Positions 2,400 through 37,917 of a stretch of DNA of 37,917 bases are shown here, piece after piece. The stretch is from a virus. The position numbers were made by a program, and so were the translations under genes. Every line of letters begins with the position of its first letter. The first letter of the stretch is position 1. The stretch is from positions 1-37,917 of IMG/VR virus record IMGVR_UViG_3300044984_001777; one strand, 5' to 3'. The notes below the pieces were generated by a model. It was not told the origin of the DNA and searched no databases. It was given only the letters and a program-made list of their open reading frames with translations.

Positions 2400-2623
2400 G
2401 GCGTCAATGTGACCACAAACTGACAGCCTAGCCCTTCTGCAATCTGCACCAGCACCGACAGGCGCGTGTTTTTGAGGGTCATGACGCGCCCGACTGTGTT
2501 CTCGCAGACCCCGGCCAACGCGGCCACTTGCGCGTAGGACATCCGTCGTTCGCGGATGATGGCGTCAATCTGCGAGGCAATCGACTCGCAGACTTCTTCC
2601 GTGGCGCGCTGCATCAGTGGCAT
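2387..2623 (-). CDS. Small XRE/Cro-type helix-turn-helix regulator
   Basis: A 78-residue protein, about the size of one Cro/CI-type DNA-binding domain. The HTH is visible as SYAQVAALAGVCENTVGRVM (about residues 29-48), followed by a helix and the usual VLVQIAEGLGCQF segment. The ATG at 2623 has GAGG about 10 nt upstream and overlaps the methyltransferase stop by 10 nt; an ATG at 2614 in a TGATG overlap is an alternative. Its position just after a DNA methyltransferase recalls controller proteins of restriction-modification loci, but no restriction enzyme is seen here. It could instead regulate packaging or head genes. The perfect inverted repeat at its 3' end is a candidate binding site. Confidence 0.8.
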   Translation of the reverse strand: MPLMQRATEEVCESIASQIDAIIRERRMSYAQVAALAGVCENTVGRVMTLKNTRLSVLVQIAEGLGCQFVVTLTPRNP

Positions 2624-3957
2624 GGTGTAGTGGCCTCATTTGGCCAGAGGGTCGGTTGTGCGGGCGGGTCGTTTTGCGTGGGCGTCGTGCCATCAATCCG
2701 CGCCTGCGCCAGCGCGGCATATCCGGCGTCCTGTTCAATGCCGAGAAACCGAATCCGTTCGAGCTTCGCGGCGACGCCAGTGGAGCCGCTGCCAGCAAAT
2801 GGGTCAAGCACCAGCCCTCCCGGTGGCGTCACCAGCCGCACCAGATGCCGCATCAGCGCGATCGGTTTCACGGTCGGGTGGTGATTCCGCCCGGCCGCAG
2901 TGCGCCCGGCTCCGGCCCTTGGATTGTCCATCCCTGCGCTTCCGGCCGCGCGGCCGACGCGATCCTCGGCAGAGACTTCCGGAGCGTCGTCCGACAGGCC
3001 GAACTCGCGATCGGCCCTGCTCGCCTTTGCACAGTAGAAAAACCGCGCCGCGCTCTCAGATGTTCCCGAATCTGACTGCGGGAACATCGCCGTCACAGCC
3101 TCGCTGCCGTCGTGGATCAGATTGGCGGGCCAGCGGTTGCCATCGACGCGCCCTGCGTCGATGTTGATCCCACCAGTCCCATACGCAAGCACGGTCTCGG
3201 CCACCGTCCCGACGATCGGCTTCCGCGCCAGCACTGCCGGTTCGTGTGCGGGCTTCAGCGCCGTCCCCCATCCGGCCCACTGGCGAGCCTCGTCGGTCGC
3301 AGGGGCTGTCAGGTCATATACTCCCGTTGGAGTGCCTCCACCGTAATTCACTACGCCTTCCTTGCGATCCAGTCGCCAGTTTTGCCCGACCACCTCGCGC
3401 GCGGCTTCGTTCATGCTCTCAAACGGAAGCCCAAATGCGTCCTTGATCGTATTAAATTGATCGACCGTAGGAAGATTAAATCCAAGCTCCCAATTAGCTA
3501 CACACCCAGTAAGCCCGCCAGATCGACTTGGAAATAATGCAGCGACTGCCTTCTGCGTGATACCACGAGATTCTCTCCAAGCGCGGAACCACGGCCCAAA
3601 CCATGCAATCTGCGATCCGCCCCGTCGGTCAATTGCCTTACTGATATCCAGCGATTTCGGGAACCCTGAACCATACAGCCACAACACCTGGTCGCGGATC
3701 TGGAAGCCCACATCCTCGACCGCGCACGCCAGCCGGTGATACGTGCGGCTCCCGCCGAAGGCGATCAGGTGCCCGCCCGGTTTCAGCACGCGCAGGCACT
3801 CGCGCCAGACGGTCACATCGTAGGCAATGCCGGATGAATCCCACGCCTTGCCCATGAAGCCCAGCTCATAGGGCGGGTCGCAGATTACCGCGTCCACTGA
3901 TGCGTCTGCAATGCCGCGCAGCACCTCCCGGCAATCGCCGTGCGTCACTGACCACAT
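2614..3957 (-). CDS. DNA methyltransferase (N4-cytosine/N6-adenine, beta-type order) with internal HTH domain
   Basis: S-adenosylmethionine-dependent DNA methyltransferase of about 447 residues, acting on DNA bases. The catalytic DPPY motif is at about 27-30 and the SAM-binding DPFAGSGSTG motif at about 385-394, so the order is catalytic, target-recognition, SAM (beta group). The middle region carries an apparent XRE-type HTH (about residues 120-178; RESRGITQKAVAALF, then WELGFNLPTVDQF), encoded by DNA clearly poorer in GC than its flanks. I chose the ATG at 3957, which begins MWSVTHGD, 2 nt after the preceding stop; a GTG at 3966 is possible. No cognate restriction gene is nearby, so it is probably an orphan methylase protecting phage DNA or altering host regulation. 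Base and site specificity cannot be read from the sequence. Confidence 0.9.
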   Translation of the reverse strand: MWSVTHGDCREVLRGIADASVDAVICDPPYELGFMGKAWDSSGIAYDVTVWRECLRVLKPGGHLIAFGGSRTYHRLACAVEDVGFQIRDQVLWLYGSGFPKSLDISKAIDRRGGSQIAWFGPWFRAWRESRGITQKAVAALFPSRSGGLTGCVANWELGFNLPTVDQFNTIKDAFGLPFESMNEAAREVVGQNWRLDRKEGVVNYGGGTPTGVYDLTAPATDEARQWAGWGTALKPAHEPAVLARKPIVGTVAETVLAYGTGGINIDAGRVDGNRWPANLIHDGSEAVTAMFPQSDSGTSESAARFFYCAKASRADREFGLSDDAPEVSAEDRVGRAAGSAGMDNPRAGAGRTAAGRNHHPTVKPIALMRHLVRLVTPPGGLVLDPFAGSGSTGVAAKLERIRFLGIEQDAGYAALAQARIDGTTPTQNDPPAQPTLWPNEATTPCH

Positions 3958-3959
3958 AC

Positions 3960-4250
3960 TCACCACTTCACACGGTTAGACCAGTACGCCGCGCTCATTT
4001 TCCCTTTGGCGATGTTCTCGGCATGGCGCGCGCGGAAGGCCTCACGACGCTCACGGTCTGCGGCCGACTCGCCTTCGCGGCGCGGTGACCCTTTCACGCC
4101 CTGTTGGCCGAAGCGGATCGTTTTGACCTCGCCGTCTTCCTTGGCCACCACCACGTGAGACTTCGTCGGATGCGACGGCGTGCGCTTCGGCTGGTTGTAG
4201 TCTTCCAGCCCCAATCGGGTCAGGCGCGGGTCTTTCGCTTTCTTGGCCAT
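3960..4250 (-). CDS. Conserved phage protein with RFG...SAAYWSNRVKW C-terminus
   Basis: A 96-residue, highly charged protein. The ATG at 4250 has a strong AGGTGA ribosome binding site 5-6 nt upstream, so I rejected the longer in-frame extension. A basic N-terminus (MAKKAKDPR) is followed by VKTIRFGQQGVKGSPRR and the end segment REAFRARHAENIAKGKMSAA, then YWSNRVKW. I recall this pattern (RFG, then SR..F.ARH, then ARYWS..W) from small proteins of unknown function in many phages. In those relatives the region often carries cysteines, which are absent here. It lies between the terminase operon and the methyltransferase, so a packaging-related role is possible but unproven. Confidence 0.75.
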   Translation of the reverse strand: MAKKAKDPRLTRLGLEDYNQPKRTPSHPTKSHVVVAKEDGEVKTIRFGQQGVKGSPRREGESAADRERREAFRARHAENIAKGKMSAAYWSNRVKW

Positions 4251-29663: not shown

Positions 29664-30728
29664 CTAGAAGGCGACGAGAGACTGCGTCGTGATACGGGTA
29701 ATGCGGAACGGATTGACGAAGGCCATGCCGTTCGGTGAGGTTGCGGCCGACTTGGCGAGGAACACCACCTGCGGCTTCACCTGATTGGCACCGCTCTCGG
29801 TCGCCGTGAAGCCGTCCGTGTCCAGTTCCAATGCGGGCCACTCGATGCGCTCGGTGAACCGGTCGGTGGAGTTGATGAACGAGCCAAGGAACTCCATATC
29901 AGCCTTAAACACGGTATCTGCGCGCAGGGCCGCGTAGACGCTGTTGGCCGACACGGTGTTCATGCGCGGGAACGTGATGGTCAGCTTCGTCTCTGGGAAC
30001 CCAGCATCGGCCGGTTCGAAGATGAAGTCCTGACCCGTGACGTTCGGGGCGTCCTGCGGCCGCGAGAACTCGAACGTGAAGCCTTCGAGGTTGACCGCGT
30101 TGGTCGCCGCCAGTGACCCCGCCGACTGCGGGTTGAGACGGAACGTGCCCTGCCGACGGAAGACGCGATTGTCAAGCGCCGGATAGGTGGCCCCGTTGAC
30201 GGTGCTGCGCGTGTTGACCGAGGAAATGTCGGTCATCTGCGCGGCCATCAGGTTGAACGTCGTGTCCATCACGCCGGAATCGCCCACGGTCTTGCTCATG
30301 CCGTAGACCTTGGCCGAGGTCATCTCGTCCACAAACGTCACCTTGTCGTAGGCCATCGTGACGCCCAGCCCGTCAATCGACGGGGCAAGGTCAATCACGT
30401 GACGCCATGAGGTTGGCGCACTGGCCGTCGACGTGCTGAGGGTCACGGCGGCTGGGGATCCCATCGCCAGTGCCTCATAGACATACTGAAAGTCCGCGTA
30501 GCGGTCCTGCTTCGTCAGCGTGATGTCCTGCGCCTGCGTGTCGCCAAAGTCGCCGCGGCCCAGAAACGTCTGGCCGAGCGCCTCGTCATTGACACGCAGC
30601 CGCGAGAGCTTCGCGCCGCCGTCCGAGGTGAAGTGAATGCCGCGCGTGACCGAGGCCGCGACGCCCCATGAGTTCGTCGCAAACTTCGCAAACGCGGCTT
30701 TAATTTCTCTGCCGGTCAATCCTGCCAT
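29664..30728 (-). CDS. Major tail (tube) protein
   Basis: 354 residues. Predicted to form the tail tube. The features fit: N-terminal TGREIKAAFAKFATNSWGVA, then TRGIHFTSDGG, a DITLTKQDRYADFQYVYEAL segment, a middle KVTFVDEMTSAKVYGMSKTV and a C-terminal ELDTDGFTATESGANQVKPQ. The sequence is mostly beta-type and soluble. It lies between the neck protein and the chaperone/tape-measure genes. Its size is larger than single-domain tube proteins, suggesting an extra surface domain. Confidence 0.8.
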   Translation of the reverse strand: MAGLTGREIKAAFAKFATNSWGVAASVTRGIHFTSDGGAKLSRLRVNDEALGQTFLGRGDFGDTQAQDITLTKQDRYADFQYVYEALAMGSPAAVTLSTSTASAPTSWRHVIDLAPSIDGLGVTMAYDKVTFVDEMTSAKVYGMSKTVGDSGVMDTTFNLMAAQMTDISSVNTRSTVNGATYPALDNRVFRRQGTFRLNPQSAGSLAATNAVNLEGFTFEFSRPQDAPNVTGQDFIFEPADAGFPETKLTITFPRMNTVSANSVYAALRADTVFKADMEFLGSFINSTDRFTERIEWPALELDTDGFTATESGANQVKPQVVFLAKSAATSPNGMAFVNPFRITRITTQSLVAF

Positions 30729-30740
30729 GTGTGGACTCTC

Positions 30741-31169
30741 CTACACTTGTGCTTCGTAGTTGAGCGGCATCGTCAAGCGCAACGTGAGATACGACGCGCC
30801 AATCGGTGCCGCCACTTCCCAGGCTCGACCAGTATCCGGGACGGTGTATTCACCTGAGGTGACGTGCCCGTCCTGAATAATCGCTGCGGTGAGACTGGAA
30901 CAATCTCTGACCAAGGCCGCATGCGTCGCCACGTAGTCCGCGGCAATCTGCCGCGCCACTTCGATGTCCAGCGTGTCGACCCGGTCTTCTGAATACCCAA
31001 ACCCTCCGAGACTGTTCCCGCCCCGAATCTTGCACCGGAACACGGCGTCGCTGCTGCCAGTTCCCTGCAAGGCGAAGTCCTCGCTGCTGACAGCCTCGCG
31101 CCAGTAGAACGGCGCATCGACCATCAAGGATCGCACTCGGTTCAGAAGCACATCTGGAGTCGTTGCCAT
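30741..31169 (-). CDS. Tail terminator / tail completion-like protein
   Basis: 142 residues from the ATG at 31169, which overlaps the preceding stop as TAATG; GAGGG lies about 4 nt upstream. N-terminal helical MATTPDVLLNRVRSLMVDAP, a beta-rich middle with VFRCKIRGGNSLGGFGYSED, and the end YLTLRLTMPLNYEAQV. Size and place just before the tail tube match tail terminator proteins. Assignment by position and general fold look. Confidence 0.6.
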   Translation of the reverse strand: MATTPDVLLNRVRSLMVDAPFYWREAVSSEDFALQGTGSSDAVFRCKIRGGNSLGGFGYSEDRVDTLDIEVARQIAADYVATHAALVRDCSSLTAAIIQDGHVTSGEYTVPDTGRAWEVAAPIGASYLTLRLTMPLNYEAQV

Positions 31170-32041
31170 TACGCCCTCGTCCACTGGAAGGACGCGCCGC
31201 CGCCGGTCACATCGTCAGCGGTCTGCGTGGTTTCCGTGGTATCCACTTGGTCATCCACCGTCACGGTGTCAAAGTCGCGCGCGACCAGTGCCAGCGCGCC
31301 CTGCATGGCCTCTTCGGCCTCGCGGAAGTAGGCGTCGGCCTTCTCCTGCCACGGCCCGCCCTGCATCGTCTGCGCCTCGCGGAAAATGAGGCCCAGCGTT
31401 CTCAGCGTCACCGGCCCCGTCAGCGCCGTGCCGCGGATGCAGCCAATCTGCCCGCAATACGCGCCCGTGGGCGTGGCACTGACCTTGATGCGTGCCCAGT
31501 AGAGCGGCGCGGAGCCATTGACGGCGCGCGTCACCCAGTCCTGCGGCATCTCCCAGCGCACATCCCCGCCGCGGGAGAACGGCTTCACGTTGAGGAACTG
31601 CGTCTCGTTCAGCGTGCCCACGCTCGTCCAGGCATCCGACCACACCTGCACGGTCAGCGTGCCCGCCGCCGTCGCCACTCGGTCGAGCATGCGAATGGAC
31701 AGCCCGCGGAACTGCTCCTGCGAGCCGATGTAGAGGAAGTCGCTTGACGGCGCGGCAAAGACGGTGCCTAGCGGCAGGCCGTCGACGCCAGCCGTCGTGG
31801 CGGCGCTGGTGTAGTCCACGTAGCTGCCGCCAGTGTAGCCCCACACCTGGGCAGGCGCACGGCGCGTCCGCAGGCGCTCGGGCACGTAGCCCGCCTTGGC
31901 CAGCGTCGGAAACGCCCAGTCCTCTAGCGCCTTCCGGCGCTTGGCCTGCCAATCCGTCTTGCCAAACTGCGTCAGGATGCTCTGCTCGTAGTCCTGCAAG
32001 TCCGAGTCAAATACCACGTCGTTCGGAAACCAGACGCTCAT
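31169..32041 (-). CDS. Neck / head-tail connector-associated protein
   Basis: 290 residues. It starts ATGA-coupled to the glycosyltransferase fusion. The N- and C-terminal parts are helical, as in adaptor proteins (DLQDYEQSILTQFGKTDWQA; FREAEEAMQGALALVARDFD). A central beta-rich insertion (GYTGGSYVDYTSAATTAGVD to ARIKVSATPTGAYCGQIGCI) looks like a carbohydrate-binding or jelly-roll domain. Likely a connector with a surface-exposed decoration domain. Confidence 0.6.
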   Translation of the reverse strand: MSVWFPNDVVFDSDLQDYEQSILTQFGKTDWQAKRRKALEDWAFPTLAKAGYVPERLRTRRAPAQVWGYTGGSYVDYTSAATTAGVDGLPLGTVFAAPSSDFLYIGSQEQFRGLSIRMLDRVATAAGTLTVQVWSDAWTSVGTLNETQFLNVKPFSRGGDVRWEMPQDWVTRAVNGSAPLYWARIKVSATPTGAYCGQIGCIRGTALTGPVTLRTLGLIFREAQTMQGGPWQEKADAYFREAEEAMQGALALVARDFDTVTVDDQVDTTETTQTADDVTGGGASFQWTRA

Positions 32042-34959
32042 ACGGCCTCCAGCGGTTCCACGTCAATCGGCGGCTCGGGCGTGAAGTGCCCCAGCCATTC
32101 GGCCTGTTTCGCGGCCAGCAGCGCGGGAATCTGCCCCGCATGCCGCACCCAGACCCGCGTGGGAGCCGCGCGGCCCTGCAAGCCCTGCTGCCCTGCGGCA
32201 AAGGCCAACTCCACCTCAAACGCGCCTGTGACGCGCTTGACGGCCTGCTCGTAGAACGGCCGCGCCAACTGGTGATACTTGTCGGCGTAGTCGGGGAAGT
32301 GCGTCTCGAAGAGTTCGATGCACTTCCGCAGATGCTCGCGGCTCTGGTCGGTCGGCCCGTGCGATTCCATAATCCACGTGGCGAGGTTCAGGTGGTCGCG
32401 CAGTAACAGCAGGTAGTGCAGTCGGCGTTCCGGGAACACCTGCCCGTCGCGCTGCAAAAGCGGCAGGTTCCGATGCACGGCCTTCGTGCGCCGGATGGCT
32501 TCGTTCAGGTAGCCGGTGTGGGCAATGTCCGTGTCGTGCAGTTGCAGGGCGGGCACGATGTCGCCGTTGCAGTCGCCCATCTGCGGCTGCTCATGCACGC
32601 ACCCGTAGAACTGGATGTCCGGCCGCTTGCGGAACACGCGGATGGGCGTATCGAACGTGACGGGCATGTCCAATTGCAGGTGCTGCTGCTTCAGCCCGAA
32701 GCCCACAAAGACCGTCGAGTCGAGATACTTCCGCAGGCACTCCGGCTGCATCAGGCGTTCGTCGGTGTCAATCCACATGAACCAATCGCCCGTCGCCGCC
32801 TGAAGCGTCGTGTTACGCGCCTCGGCAAAGCCACCGTGCAGGCCATGCACCGGGCCGACCTCGATGATGCGGGTCCGCGGATACTCGTCGGCAATCGCGG
32901 CCAGCGTGTCAGGATTCACGCCGGTATTGGCTAGGATGATGTCGTCCGCAATGTGCCAGATGGAACTCAGGCAGCGCCGGATGTCGATGGTTTCCCCGGC
33001 CAGAATTCCCACCGACAGCGTCGGCTTCGGCCGCGTCAGCGCCACGATACGGTCAAGGTCACGCGCGCCAAACGCCTTCCGCGAGAACGTGCACGAGACA
33101 ATCCAGTGCCCGATGCGGTTCCCGCGCGGCGTGACGCCCATATCGAGCAGCGAGACGTTCAGGGCATCCTGCCCGCCGAAGATGGCCTCCAAGTCACGCG
33201 GCGTGAAGCAGTGGACGTGCCCGCGTTTGATGACCATGTCTTGACTGGCGAGTTCCAGGAACGGCCCCATCGGCATGGTAGCCACCATGCGAGCGCCCGA
33301 TGAGCATCGCTTCCGCACCGCTGTGAGGAACCCCGGCACGTTCGCAATGTGTTCGAGGAACTCGCCAATGAAGACCCCGTCAAACGGGCCGTAGGGCTTG
33401 AGGCTGTCCAGCGTGGCCTCATGGGCCGTGTGCGTCGTGTAGTCATACGCAGGCCCGACGAGGAACGTGCAGCGGTCAGCCACGCCCTGTTCCGCGGCGA
33501 ACTCCTGCGCCACGCGGATATTCTCGGCCGCGTAGTCGAGGCCCACCACGCGCCGCGTGGGAGACGCCAGTGCCAGTGCCACGGCAAACGACCCGTTACC
33601 GCAGGCGAGGTCCAGCACGCATTCACTGCCCGCGAGCGCCTCGATGACTGGCGCGATGCGGCGGTTGTTGGCCATTTCCAGCCGCGGGTCCATCGCACGG
33701 GCGCTGTAATCCTCAGAGACCTGCTCCAGCCCGTCAATGACTCGCGTGGCGTCTTCCACTACATCTGGCCAGCCCTGCTCGGCCGCGAAGTGACGCACGG
33801 CCACGTAGTCGTCCCGCTGCTGAAGCTGCGCCAGAATGCCGCGCGGATTCGACCGCACCCGCGCCGTCAGACGCTGGGCCACCATCTGTTCCCACTCAGC
33901 GGCCACCTCGTTGAACCGGTAGTGGTCGACGTGCAGGAGGCCTTTCTCCACGCGGTCCATCACGGGCGTCTGGCCCGTCAGGATGCCCTCCACAATGCCG
34001 ATGCTCTCGGCCTGGTAGGCAGGGCTGTCGGCGTCGCCTTTGACCAGCCAGCCATGCGGCACGGTCTCCGGCAGCGCGCCCTTCCACGACCCGACGAACG
34101 GTGTGCCGCAGGCTTGCGCCTCAATCGCGGCGACGCAGGATGTCTCGGCAAAGTCTGCAATGCCCGGATACCACATGACCGCCGACGAGCGGATGGCCTC
34201 ATACAGGGCAGACTTGCCCAGTTCGCCCAGCCACGTAATGCCGCCCACGGCGCGGTTGACGGCCTCCACCTGTTCGTCGTAGGCGGCGCACACGCGGCCC
34301 CAGCCTGAGGCGTCATACATGCTGTTATAGCGGCAGAGGTGCAACTCGGCGTCTGGCACGCGGCGCTTCAGTTCGGGCCACATGGCCAGCAGCGGCCGCA
34401 GGCCACGTTCCGGGCGGGTGATGTGAATCACCTTTTTGAGATTGCGAGTGCCTTCGAGCGGCACATAGGACGGGTCGAAGCCGTTCTTGCAGACCCAGCC
34501 AATCGGGGCCAGTTCCGGGGCCACGCCTTCCCACTGCTTGCGGTGGTAGTGCGACACGTAGGCCGACACGTCATAGGCCCACGCCAGCGCCATCGTCATA
34601 TTCTTGGCGGCGCTGCCTGTCATCAAATCCTGATTCCACAGCACCCGCAGCGCGGCGTCGATGTTCGCGCCGAAAATGTGCGGCATGCGAAGGGCCACGA
34701 AGACATCCCACGCGGTGAACCGTGAGACATCGGCCAGCGCGTTCGTGGGGTGCCACGTCACGCCCCAGCGGTCAATCGGGCGCGCGTCCTTGTGGAGTTT
34801 CGTGGTGAAGATATGCACGCGGTGCCCACGCGCCTGAAGCGCACGGGCCAGCCCAAGGCAGGCCGACTCTGACCCGCCCAGCGATTCCGTGCCCGCCTGC
34901 ACGCCGGGCGTGAACTCAACCGAGTCGATATGGAAGGCCCACGTGAGACTAGCGCGCAT
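32038..34959 (-). CDS. Three-domain glycosyltransferase-methyltransferase-glycosyltransferase
   Basis: 973 residues from the ATG at 34959 (GGAG 8 nt upstream). Domain 1 (about 1-365) is GT-B/GT4-like: LGGSESACLGLARALQARGH near the N-terminus, HITRPERGLRPLLAMWPELK, and an E-x7-E motif in FAETSCVAAIEAQACGTPFV (Glu about 272 and 280). Domain 2 is a SAM-dependent methyltransferase with VLDLACGNGSFAVALALA (about 448-465) and GVFIGEFLEHI. Domain 3 (from about 648) is GT-A/GT2: LSVGILAGETIDIRRCLSSI, AEARNTTLQAATGDWFMWID and an IDTDE (about 730-734) DXD-like site. It lies between capsid and neck genes, so it probably glycosylates and methylates the virion or a host glycan. Substrate unknown. Confidence 0.9.
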   Translation of the reverse strand: MRASLTWAFHIDSVEFTPGVQAGTESLGGSESACLGLARALQARGHRVHIFTTKLHKDARPIDRWGVTWHPTNALADVSRFTAWDVFVALRMPHIFGANIDAALRVLWNQDLMTGSAAKNMTMALAWAYDVSAYVSHYHRKQWEGVAPELAPIGWVCKNGFDPSYVPLEGTRNLKKVIHITRPERGLRPLLAMWPELKRRVPDAELHLCRYNSMYDASGWGRVCAAYDEQVEAVNRAVGGITWLGELGKSALYEAIRSSAVMWYPGIADFAETSCVAAIEAQACGTPFVGSWKGALPETVPHGWLVKGDADSPAYQAESIGIVEGILTGQTPVMDRVEKGLLHVDHYRFNEVAAEWEQMVAQRLTARVRSNPRGILAQLQQRDDYVAVRHFAAEQGWPDVVEDATRVIDGLEQVSEDYSARAMDPRLEMANNRRIAPVIEALAGSECVLDLACGNGSFAVALALASPTRRVVGLDYAAENIRVAQEFAAEQGVADRCTFLVGPAYDYTTHTAHEATLDSLKPYGPFDGVFIGEFLEHIANVPGFLTAVRKRCSSGARMVATMPMGPFLELASQDMVIKRGHVHCFTPRDLEAIFGGQDALNVSLLDMGVTPRGNRIGHWIVSCTFSRKAFGARDLDRIVALTRPKPTLSVGILAGETIDIRRCLSSIWHIADDIILANTGVNPDTLAAIADEYPRTRIIEVGPVHGLHGGFAEARNTTLQAATGDWFMWIDTDERLMQPECLRKYLDSTVFVGFGLKQQHLQLDMPVTFDTPIRVFRKRPDIQFYGCVHEQPQMGDCNGDIVPALQLHDTDIAHTGYLNEAIRRTKAVHRNLPLLQRDGQVFPERRLHYLLLLRDHLNLATWIMESHGPTDQSREHLRKCIELFETHFPDYADKYHQLARPFYEQAVKRVTGAFEVELAFAAGQQGLQGRAAPTRVWVRHAGQIPALLAAKQAEWLGHFTPEPPIDVEPLEAV

Positions 34960-35137
34960 CGGCCATCTCCTTGCGCGGGCGTCCGGGGCCACGGCGCAGC
35001 GGTTCGTCGACGGCGTCCATCACCTCAAGGCGCGGCCCAATCACGTCGGCCAGATACCGCTGCCACCGCTTAAACACATCCGGCCGCACATCCTGCGGCC
35101 CTCGCGCTCGGCAAATCTCTTCCAGAATTGGGTCCAT
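34949..35137 (-). CDS. Small protein with AT-hook-like end
   Basis: 62 residues between capsid and glycosyltransferase genes. Helical N-terminal part (ILEEICRARGPQDVRPDVFK, then RWQRYLADVI) and the C-terminal RRGPGRPRKEMADAR with the GRPRK AT-hook core. The ATG at 35137 follows a GAGGAGTGACG stretch. It overlaps the downstream gene start by 11 nt. It could be a DNA-binding head protein; no family recognised. Confidence 0.65.
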   Translation of the reverse strand: MDPILEEICRARGPQDVRPDVFKRWQRYLADVIGPRLEVMDAVDEPLRRGPGRPRKEMADAR

Positions 35138-35176
35138 ACGTCACTCCTCACAGGGCGTTGCTCAGACGCCAGAAAC

Positions 35177-35210
35177 CGGCCGGAGCGGCTCACAGGAACC
35201 GCCCCGGCCG
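35177..35210 (-). terminator. Strong hairpin after major capsid gene (attenuator-like)
   Basis: A 12-bp GC-rich stem (35177-35188 with 35199-35210) and 10-nt loop begins 7 nt after the capsid stop. The only non-Watson-Crick pair is G-U in the minus-strand RNA (A-C on the other strand), so the RNA copy that counts is the minus one. Only a short T-run follows (GGTTTCTGG). It probably reduces read-through or stabilises capsid mRNA. Confidence 0.6.
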
Positions 35211-35216
35211 AGGGTG

Positions 35217-36359
35217 TTAGCTCTTGATGCGGGCCATGGCGTTCGGGTGATGCACCTCGATGGTGTATTCCCCGGTCAGCAGACCCTTCTTGTTGTCGCC
35301 GGTCTTGCCCATCTCGTCATACGAGAACGAGCGACCCTGGAGCGGCACGACCTTGACGCGCTCACGCGGGACCAGCAGCAGTTCCGTGCCCGACAGGACG
35401 CGCGACAGGATGACGGTCGCGGTGCCCAGCGGCCCGGTGTAGGTGCGAATCACGCGCTTGAAGAGTTCGGACTGCTGCGAGTCCTCCACCTTCGTGTCGT
35501 TCAGGTTGCTGATATCGCGGAAGTAGGTCGGCCCCGCGACAATCGCCCAGTTCTCCGTGTCAGGCGACCCGCCCTGCTCGTAAATCTGCTGCCAGACGTT
35601 GCCGATGTAGAGGTGCGGGTTGGTCGAGAACGAGGACGCGGTGACGGTGCTGTTCACGGTGGTCAGCCAGTTCCGCAGGCCCTGCATGGTGCGGGTCTGC
35701 GAGGACGAGCCGAGCGAGTTGGTGCTGTTCAGCACGCCACGCACCACGCTCTTCTCCAGCTGGTGCATCATGTCCACCACGCCCTTGGCCACGGCCTGAT
35801 CGTAGCTGTCGTTGCCGTAGATGTTGATGGCCAGTTCGGTGCCAGACGCGGCCACGGGCATCTCGAAGAGGCCCACGGTGTTGGCCTTGCGCTCACCGAG
35901 ACGGCGCGTGTGGCGTCCGTCGTGGTCAGCGCCTTCAAGGCCCGCCATCTCACGGACGTAGAGCTGACCGCCAGCGGCCAGCGACCCCACCGCGCCGCCA
36001 CCGTAGGCGCGCGTGACCACGATGCTGTTGGCCCCGACAATCGAGGACACCTGCATCACTTCGGTCTGGGTTTCGTTCTCCAGAATCGTGCCGACCGTCA
36101 GCGCCTCGCCCAGACCATTAATCTGGATGCCAGTCGCGGCCGTGGCCGAGTTGATGGCCGTCGACGCGGTGATGAAGTTGGGCAGCATGTAGTCCTGCAC
36201 CCACTCATGCTTCGTCGACACGGCGAACACCGACGAATCGCCCAACCAGTTCAGGAACGGCGTTTCCTTCGGGCTGAGGGTCGCAATCAGGCGCGACACA
36301 TCCTCCTGCACCAGTGATGCGGTGAACAGGTCATTGGTAGACAGACCAGTAAATGCCAT
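35217..36359 (-). CDS. Major capsid protein, SU10-type (DUF5309)
   Basis: 380 residues, HK97-fold shell subunit. The SU10-type pattern is clear: VSRLIATLSPKETPFLNWLG at the N-terminus, KHEWVQDYMLPNFITASTAI, then TEVMQVSSIVGANSIVVTRA, the LLLVPRERVKVVPLQGRSFS segment and the C-terminal LTGEYTIEVHHPNAMARIKS. It follows the scaffold by 15 nt. A strong hairpin follows the stop, fitting high expression of this gene alone. No separate decoration protein was identified. Confidence 0.93.
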   Translation of the reverse strand: MAFTGLSTNDLFTASLVQEDVSRLIATLSPKETPFLNWLGDSSVFAVSTKHEWVQDYMLPNFITASTAINSATAATGIQINGLGEALTVGTILENETQTEVMQVSSIVGANSIVVTRAYGGGAVGSLAAGGQLYVREMAGLEGADHDGRHTRRLGERKANTVGLFEMPVAASGTELAINIYGNDSYDQAVAKGVVDMMHQLEKSVVRGVLNSTNSLGSSSQTRTMQGLRNWLTTVNSTVTASSFSTNPHLYIGNVWQQIYEQGGSPDTENWAIVAGPTYFRDISNLNDTKVEDSQQSELFKRVIRTYTGPLGTATVILSRVLSGTELLLVPRERVKVVPLQGRSFSYDEMGKTGDNKKGLLTGEYTIEVHHPNAMARIKS

Positions 36360-36374
36360 GTACGGACTCTCCTC

Positions 36375-37124
36375 TTAGCGGCCAGCCCCCGCCGCGCGTG
36401 TGCGAATGGAGCGCACCGCCTGCGTCAGGTTCTTGGCCGATGGGTTAGCAGCCACCGCCGCCAGCGCATCCTCGTGCGCGGCATCAGCCGGTGTCTGCGT
36501 CTGACGGAATGCCGCCCCGCCCTGTGCGCGTCCGGGAATGGATTTCCCGCCGCGCAGGTGGTGAGGATGCGATCCCAGGTATTCAGCCACCAACCCCTCA
36601 ATACTCATCGGCTTGCCGTCCACCAGGCGGGGCGCGTTGTCGGCCCCCTTAACGAACGGGTCCAGATGGTCATCGAGGTCAATATCCGCTCCGAGGAGCT
36701 TGACCAGCTCAGGCAGGCTTTCATCACGCGCACCGGCAGCGACGGCGGCGGCGCGAATCTCGGCCCCGAGCATGGAGCGCAGTCGTGCGTCACGACGCCC
36801 GATCTCCGCATCTTTAAGCCGCGCGGTCTCTTCACGCTCGGCAATCTGTTTGGTAAACCGCTCTTCGCGCAGGCGGGCGGCTTCTTCGTAGTTCTTGTCA
36901 CGAGTGGCAATCTCTTCACGCAGGAGCTGGGCGTCGGCTTCGACCTGCTTGAGCCGTTCCCGCTCGGCGGGGTCCACGATGCGCGGCTGCATCTCGCGTT
37001 CGACCTTCTGCGCCCCGCGCTTGTAGGCCTCGTTAATCGCGCGGTCCAAGAAGGACTGCAAGGGCGCTGGCAGCGTGCCGATATTGCCCTGCTCGTCGAG
37101 TTCTACGGTAATCGGTTCCGGCAT
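36375..37124 (-). CDS. Capsid scaffold protein
   Basis: 249 residues from the ATG at 37124; a GTG at 37136 is possible. It is highly charged and coiled coil throughout the middle (AERERLKQVEADAQLLREEI, then REETARLKDAEIGRRDARLR), as scaffolds are. The C-terminus (NLTQAVRSIRTRAAGAGR) is basic and helical, the usual capsid-binding end. It lies directly before the major capsid gene. No protease signature is present, so it is probably released rather than cut. Confidence 0.82.
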   Translation of the reverse strand: MPEPITVELDEQGNIGTLPAPLQSFLDRAINEAYKRGAQKVEREMQPRIVDPAERERLKQVEADAQLLREEIATRDKNYEEAARLREERFTKQIAEREETARLKDAEIGRRDARLRSMLGAEIRAAAVAAGARDESLPELVKLLGADIDLDDHLDPFVKGADNAPRLVDGKPMSIEGLVAEYLGSHPHHLRGGKSIPGRAQGGAAFRQTQTPADAAHEDALAAVAANPSAKNLTQAVRSIRTRAAGAGR

Positions 37125-37143
37125 ATGCCTCGTCACTCCCGCG

Positions 37144-37353
37144 TTAGAGAAGCTGAGAACGCTGGCTCAGTCGGCGCTCCAACAGCACCGAGATGTCGTC
37201 CATATCTTGGGGCGTCAGGCCAAAGAACTCGCGCTTGATACGGCTTTTCCCGGCCCCGGCTATCTGATGATACACGGCTTTTTCTGCGGCGGGCACTTTC
37301 CGTGACCGCTGAACCATCGACATCCGACGTCCTGACCCTTTACGGCGTCCCAT
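37144..37353 (-). CDS. gpG-like morphogenesis fragment (C-terminal half of a split domain?)
   Basis: 69 residues. A basic start (MGRRKGSGRRMSMVQRSRKV) is followed by VYHQIAGAG, then REFFGLTPQDMDDISVLLER, which resembles the C-terminal end of Mu gpG-type virion morphogenesis proteins. The N-terminal half of such a protein is the next gene upstream (37355-37642), in another frame. It opens 1 nt after that stop. Either a split gene or two cooperating proteins. Confidence 0.65.
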   Translation of the reverse strand: MGRRKGSGRRMSMVQRSRKVPAAEKAVYHQIAGAGKSRIKREFFGLTPQDMDDISVLLERRLSQRSQLL

Positions 37354-37354
37354 G

Positions 37355-37642
37355 TCAGAAGGTCAACGTGACTTGCGTGTCCGTGGCAATAATCTGAATC
37401 GACCGCAACATCTCGCCCGACAATTCCAGTTTGACGGTATTGCGTGCCAGGCCTTCTTTGGTGCGCGCGTCGATATAGCCCTGTGAGTAGGGCGTAAAGG
37501 GCTTGTTGTATTGGTCCTGCCCACTGCGCGTGCGCTGCAAGATGCGCTCGCGGGCCAGCAACCCAATCTGATACCAGTCGTCCTTCGTGGTTTTCAGCGT
37601 CTCGGTGAGCGGGCCGAAGTTGCGCGTGACGTAGACAGCCAT
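37355..37642 (-). CDS. Mu gpG-like virion morphogenesis protein (N-terminal half)
   Basis: 95 residues, starting as TAATG on the gpF-like stop. ERILQRTRSGQDQYNKPFTP, then YSQGYIDARTKEG and LELSGEMLRSIQIIATDTQV, then TLTF, is the typical gpG/tail-completion pattern. It stops at 37355, and the expected C-terminal segment appears in the next ORF (37144-37353). Its partner gpF-like protein precedes it, the usual gpF-gpG order. Confidence 0.8.
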   Translation of the reverse strand: MAVYVTRNFGPLTETLKTTKDDWYQIGLLARERILQRTRSGQDQYNKPFTPYSQGYIDARTKEGLARNTVKLELSGEMLRSIQIIATDTQVTLTF

Positions 37643-37917
37643 TATGTGGTGACTCCTCGGGCGCGACGCTGCCGGTCACTCCGTCGCGCCTGCCGCTGCT
37701 GGGCCTTGGCCGAGGCAATCTCTTCTTCAAACCCCGGCGCGCGCAGATTCATTCCCGCGAGGCTGACCAGTTCATCGGACGCCACCGCCAGAAACGAATG
37801 GCGGCAGTTATAGCCGCCGCCGGTCAGGAAGGCATTCGGCAACTGGCCGTTGTCCATGGCTTCAATCTCGCGGCGTGTATAGACCTTGCCCACGCGGTCG
37901 AGGCACCATGTCCGCGT
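37642..37917 (-). CDS. Minor head protein, Mu gpF-like (C-terminal part, continues at base 1-742)
   Basis: C-terminal part of the gene described at 1-742; bases 37791-37917 duplicate 1-127. The region reads GKVYTRREIEAMDNGQLPNA, FLTGGGYNCRHSFLAV, and a charged end with AKAQQRQARRSDRQRRARG. The stop overlaps the gpG-like start as TAATG. The ATG at 37893 seen when this end is read alone is not a real start. Confidence 0.88.
   Translation of the reverse strand, partial: TRTWCLDRVGKVYTRREIEAMDNGQLPNAFLTGGGYNCRHSFLAVASDELVSLAGMNLRAPGFEEEIASAKAQQRQARRSDRQRRARGVTT
37791..37917. repeat. Right copy of 127-bp terminal direct repeat
   Basis: Identical to 1-127, base for base. It proves that the contig closes on itself. 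See the left copy for interpretation. Confidence 0.95.

Follow-up and report, generated by a model that had tools for sequence, protein, structure and literature searches.

A GT4–methyltransferase–GT2 fusion encoded after the capsid gene of uncultured phages, a probable virion-decoration enzyme

The fusion gene and its neighbours

The window, which is the whole 37,917-nucleotide stretch of viral DNA analysed here (IMG/VR record IMGVR_UViG_3300044984_001777), encodes on its minus strand a 973-residue GT4–methyltransferase–GT2 protein (positions 32038–34959). The reading frame of this fusion is unbroken from the ATG at 34959 to the TGA at 32038. A Shine–Dalgarno-like AAGGAG (34967–34972) lies about 7 nt 5′ of the ATG, and a GTG at 34992 is in frame. 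All of these features, and the head and tail genes described next, lie on the minus strand.

Upstream of the fusion are genes for a probable scaffolding protein (36375–37136), assigned from its position and a PF06810 match under the curated cut-off (2.5e-4), and for the major capsid protein (35217–36359), the candidate substrate. The capsid assignment made in the earlier note is borne out by matches to PF17236 SU10_MCP (5.6e-51) and phrog_1328 (3.4e-43), which identify the SU10 type. The C-terminus of the capsid protein has no Ser/Thr-rich tail that would be an obvious glycosylation site. A small conserved charged protein of 62 residues (34949–35137), with equivalents in most relatives inspected, is encoded between the capsid gene and the fusion, and its gene overlaps the fusion start. 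It has no Pfam match; its C-terminal GPGRPRK is AT-hook-like.

Downstream, the TGA of the fusion and the ATG of the next gene (31169–32041) overlap as ATGA, an arrangement found in many relatives. The earlier note placed the fusion between the capsid gene and a neck gene to which it is coupled in this way. The capsid neighbour and the overlap both stand, whereas the neck label does not, since the product of 31169–32041 has no PHROG or PDB relative even with its family as query. It is a conserved protein translationally coupled to the fusion, its function not identified. One more gene separates it from the tail tube gene (29664–30728), an alternative substrate whose identity had also been called correctly: its AF2 model is T5 pb6-like and matches T5 tail proteins (1.3e-12) and the P74-26 tail tube (5.5e-11) in Foldseek.

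Elsewhere, the scanned ORFs of the window (the main ORFs, not every short one) encode portal, terminase, tape measure, recombination genes, lysozyme and a DNA methylase of the N6_N4 type (2614–3966). They contain no gene for sugar-nucleotide biosynthesis, as the earlier note had stated, and none for a flippase or for base hypermodification. Sugar donors are therefore likely to come from the host. Neither a DNA search of positions 31000–37900 nor searches with the 31169–32041 protein and the tail tube found a match among cultured phages.

Domains and folds of the fusion protein

Pfam recovers three domains with significant scores, in the order GT-B (PF13692/PF13579), methyltransferase (PF13847/PF13489, 4.8e-12) and GT2 (PF00535, 1.8e-8), so that the single protein of about 973 residues with GT-B, SAM methyltransferase and GT-A parts originally read from the sequence is present in an intact ORF. 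All of the motifs quoted for it are there as well: E272-x7-E280, VLDLACGNG (448–456) and IDTDE (730–734). Structure prediction, which the earlier note had proposed as a check, gave an AF2 model that is confident over all domains (pLDDT 89, pTM 0.86), and Foldseek agrees for each of the three.

The N-terminal domain (residues 1–365; 33865–34959) is a GT4-like, retaining glycosyltransferase, with the GT-B fold and the E-x7-E motif (34120–34146) that define GT4. Its Foldseek matches include MshA (3c4q; E 1e-15) and, lower-ranked, SdgB, a glycosyltransferase of protein SD repeats. A helical linker (residues 366–437; 33649–33864) leads to a class I SAM methyltransferase (residues 438–636; 33052–33648), which carries VLDLACGNG and GEFLEH and has the Rossmann fold, glycine-rich motif I and acidic motif II of that class. 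Several O-methyltransferases match it by fold, AtmM and RebM among them. With the family profile as query against the PDB, its best match is AtmM, a D-glucose O-methyltransferase, and the sugar O-methyltransferases AtmM (6uv6) and RebM (3bus) are among its best solved relatives.

The GT2 domain (residues 643–850; 32410–33033) carries DTDE at 731–734 and GCVHEQ at 786–791, and shares its DxD and GxVHE motifs with SunS and ThuS. These two are the top fold matches of the GT2 region (7e-16, over an alignment of about 290 columns), and the best profile matches are GmaR (5.1e-26), SunS (2.4e-18) and ThuS (1.9e-17). The alignment extends into a mainly helical C-terminal extension (residues 851–973; 32041–32409), and with it the region has all the marks of a SunS/GmaR-like GT2 enzyme: GT-A fold, DxD, GxVHE and helical extension. 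The extension is a possible substrate-docking part, a role that is inferred. No membrane-helix-like segment was found in the fusion, the maximum 19-residue mean hydropathy being 1.67, within the SAM-binding strand.

Relatives, conservation and inteins

Two scans of viral contigs with the fusion as query gave 13 and 31 loci, partly on the same contigs, most of them 45–100% identical at full length; the capsid profile, also used in two scans, found 59 and 60. In all 53 testable viral contigs, the fusion lies 241–1081 nt after a related capsid gene, and gene order around it is the same. Testable contigs are those analysed that have enough readable downstream sequence; seven more end too early. 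The 53 are separate contigs but some are near-identical, and they hold 28 fusion proteins at <90% identity, the window's included. The second capsid-profile scan, run for relatives without the fusion, gained a single contig, L088, on which the capsid gene is cut off by the contig end. Sporosarcina phage Lietuvens, which is more distant and has a 30% identical capsid, has no annotated glycosyltransferase at that place; hence the enzyme is not needed for SU10-type capsids in general.

Some of these loci carry additional genes. Between capsid and fusion there is an extra methyltransferase gene (Methyltransf_24) in L071 (9147–10227) and L084 (810–1703), and a gene similar to it by eye in L075 (9155–10076). 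The same interval in L072 and L077 encodes a predicted protein of about 176 residues that is repeat-like at its N-terminal end and has a weak helix-turn-helix match after it. By family HMM, three further viral contigs (L174, L175 and L176) show other domain orders, as GT2-MT and GT2-GTB fusions.

A second branch was found with a 30%-identical three-domain homologue as query. Its source genome shares its class with the Xanthobacteraceae MAG taken as the centre and is thus probably alphaproteobacterial. This query gave 69 loci, 52 of which (on viral contigs) have all three domains in one frame and reduce to 42 non-redundant loci at <85% identity. None contains a relative of the window's capsid, coupled gene or tail tube. 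Instead, 32 of the 42 have a second capsid-like family upstream of the fusion, at gaps of about 110–1770 nt; 25 of the scanned neighbours are matches to phrog_1005 ('major head protein'), and the capsid gene is itself preceded by one for a head maturation protease. No profile–profile similarity between the two capsid families was detected (hhalign probability 0.5%), both profiles being shallow. The genes downstream differ between the two head modules, and the neighbour common to both is the upstream capsid gene. A phage glycosyltransferase gene among virion structural genes, one criterion for a virion glycosylation system, is thus present at 53/53 loci of the first branch and 32/42 of the second. 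In five second-branch loci, similar genes (L128:7409–8095 and its counterparts) lie near the fusion, mostly downstream; some match radical SAM families (phrog_1802, QueE-like) and perhaps add a further modification.

Full three-domain matches are scarce in bacterial genomes: a scan of 142 from one class and 299 from one phylum gave only three. Two of these (G054 and G311) are near capsid genes, in G311 a distant SU10-type capsid, and the third (G001) is in a phage contig. A plasmid search returned single-domain matches only.

Catalytic residues were examined in an alignment of 70 non-redundant sequences from both branches. E272, C275, E280, G456, E533, E536 and H537 are invariant (70/70), D475 is kept in 69/70, D731, D733 and E734 in 69/69 aligned sequences and H789 and E790 in 68/68, and H814 is invariant wherever aligned. 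Methyltransferase motif I is variable in the second branch, where G454 is mostly Ala; D450 is replaced by Glu in 5/70. The fusion is under purifying selection, with dN/dS of 0.03–0.38 in the catalytic domains and the C-terminus; the linker, its fastest-evolving part, is looser (up to 0.6). Such selection, together with full-length homologues down to about 30% identity, places the fusion beyond chance. Judged by their near-invariant catalytic residues, all three domains look active, although catalysis itself is inferred, without an enzyme assay.

Inteins typically occupy constrained sites of important proteins. Three divergent homologues (L059:4329–6551, L154:7899–11822 and L115:2446–5937) carry insertions of different sizes at one place, after residue 274 (Ser in the window's protein), within E-x7-E and ahead of the invariant C275. 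The L059 insert matches an HNH domain and the Pfam intein splicing domain (1.5e-8), the latter just under the curated cut-off (35.0 versus 35.8 bits); a frameshift suspected in this homologue was rejected, the insert being an in-frame intein. The L154 insert matches DnaB inteins in the PDB, and that of L115 is called an intein from its ends only, beginning with C and ending with HN. On the basis of a limited literature search, we are aware of no previous description of inteins in a glycosyltransferase of this kind.

Proposed function and comparison with known systems

We propose that the fusion, with its three activities, probably decorates a virion protein with a short, methylated glycan, and that the capsid is the most likely target; for no member of the family are there data from enzyme assays or from mass spectrometry of virions. 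Virion decoration, the function suggested in the earlier note, is the best-supported reading. Three intact domains with near-invariant catalytic residues, under purifying selection, follow the capsid gene in two phage groups with capsids that lack detectable similarity. The GT2 domain is closest to protein and peptide glycosyltransferases, and the best solved relatives of the methyltransferase include sugar O-methyltransferases. A protein acceptor is inferred because the GT2 domain resembles GmaR and SunS, a virion protein as target because of gene position, and a methylated sugar because of the methyltransferase domain. Further points in favour of the proposal are the lack of a membrane-helix-like segment, the extra methyltransferase genes of L071 and L084, the comparable gene cluster of podovirus ctxSa4 and the inteins at the GT4 active site. 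Several observations tell against it: some annotations of such GT2 domains name polysaccharide enzymes, motif I of the methyltransferase varies in the second branch, the capsid protein offers no Ser/Thr-rich tail, and phage Lietuvens has no annotated glycosyltransferase at the corresponding place.

The proposed enzyme would be soluble and produced together with head and tail proteins. Its inverting, SunS/GmaR-like GT2 domain would start the glycan by moving a sugar from a nucleotide sugar of the host to side chains of a virion protein; the likeliest acceptor is the major capsid protein, whose gene is the one just upstream. The retaining GT4 domain would add the second sugar, and the middle methyltransferase would O-methylate the glycan and may cap it, the single chain allowing the acceptor to pass from one active site to the next. 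This order, with GT2 first, GT4 second and methylation at some later point, is inferred, as are the identity of the sugars and any role in shielding or adsorption.

The glycan may instead be placed on another virion protein, either the tail tube or the product of 31169–32041, a variant of the same reading that we regard as possible but doubtful. The ATGA coupling to 31169–32041, kept in many relatives, is in its favour, as is the fact that both the capsid and the tail tube of mycobacteriophages bear glycans (Freeman 2023, cited in PMC12619734). However, the neighbour kept in both unrelated modules is the upstream capsid gene, whereas the downstream genes differ.

Alternatively, the enzyme might alter a glycan on the host surface (lipopolysaccharide or capsule) in the course of infection or lysogeny, for instance to block superinfection. 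Bacterial polysaccharide loci commonly encode GT4, GT2 and methyltransferase domains. Homologues in contigs of three bacterial assemblies fit this view, and some phage glycosyltransferases change host serotype (PMC12619734). We nevertheless consider it unlikely and rank serotype conversion low: no membrane partner (flippase or anchored glycosyltransferase) is encoded in the scanned ORFs and the fusion itself lacks a membrane-helix-like segment, its gene sits among head genes and is coupled to a gene of the structural region, its GT2 domain is nearest to protein glycosyltransferases, and the post-capsid position is kept even with a different head module. Ranked low too, and highly improbable, is glycosylation or hypermodification of phage DNA against restriction: although modification of DNA bases by phage glycosyltransferases is well known (Pyle 2024, as cited in PMC12619734) and a gene for an N6_N4-type DNA methylase is present in the window, the scanned ORFs include none for base hypermodification (a hydroxymethylase, for example), the fusion is located among structural rather than replication genes, and the relatives of its GT2 and methyltransferase domains act on proteins, peptides or small glycosides.

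Virion glycosylation by phages is already known; what is new is a single-chain, near-universal version in uncultured phages. A search of 50,697 phage records found no full-length homologue of the fusion, and searches limited to open-access papers found none that describes a GT4–methyltransferase–GT2 fusion. On balance, we favour the view that a large set of uncultured phages, in which two or more unrelated capsid modules occur, decorates its virions by glycosylation and methylation through one such post-capsid enzyme. If true, virion glycosylation, of which tailed phages offer few experimental examples, would belong to the basic make-up of these phages rather than being a peculiarity of actinobacteriophages. 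As a single recognisable enzyme, the fusion marks dozens of environmental phages, including some with unrelated heads, as probably glycosylated, and makes the role of a sugar coat in nature testable, whether protection against proteases, grazers or antibodies, or changed adsorption. Bacterial glycoprotein production could also profit from a single chain able to initiate, extend and methylate a glycan on a protein from cytosolic donors.

Mycobacteriophages encode their virion-glycosylation enzymes in separate genes. Their capsid and tail tube proteins are glycosylated by phage-encoded glycosyltransferases (Freeman 2023, through PMC12619734 and PMC13313380). They are tailed like the phage of the window, but are actinobacteriophages, whereas the one trifunctional chain belongs to uncultured phages. 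Podovirus ctxSa4 (MW202718) is similar in that a SU10-type capsid gene is followed by glycosyltransferase and methyltransferase genes, including a GT2-TPR-GT4 fusion, between the capsid and a 'phage stabilization' gene; it differs in being a podovirus, in the GT2–GT4 order and in its separate glycosyltransferase and methyltransferase genes.

The glycocin glycosyltransferases SunS and ThuS resemble the GT2 domain in fold and in the DxD and GxVHE motifs, but each is a single glycosyltransferase that acts on a secreted peptide. GmaR, the flagellin O-GlcNAc transferase and best GT2 profile match, likewise has a GT2 domain followed by a helical part, whose repeats are proposed to dock flagellin (PMC9638930) and so provide a model for the C-terminal part of the fusion; it has an antirepressor part but neither a GT4 nor a methyltransferase domain. 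Among systems whose workings are established, the closest analogue is A064R of chlorovirus PBCV-1, compared here in domain logic only, with no claim of homology. A064R is unlike the fusion in coming from an algal virus, in its GT-GT-MT order and in having rhamnosyltransferases that extend an N-glycan core laid by other proteins. Like the fusion, it joins two glycosyltransferase domains and a methyltransferase in one viral polypeptide; its activities have been verified, and it extends and methyl-caps the glycan of the major capsid protein (PMC7019647).
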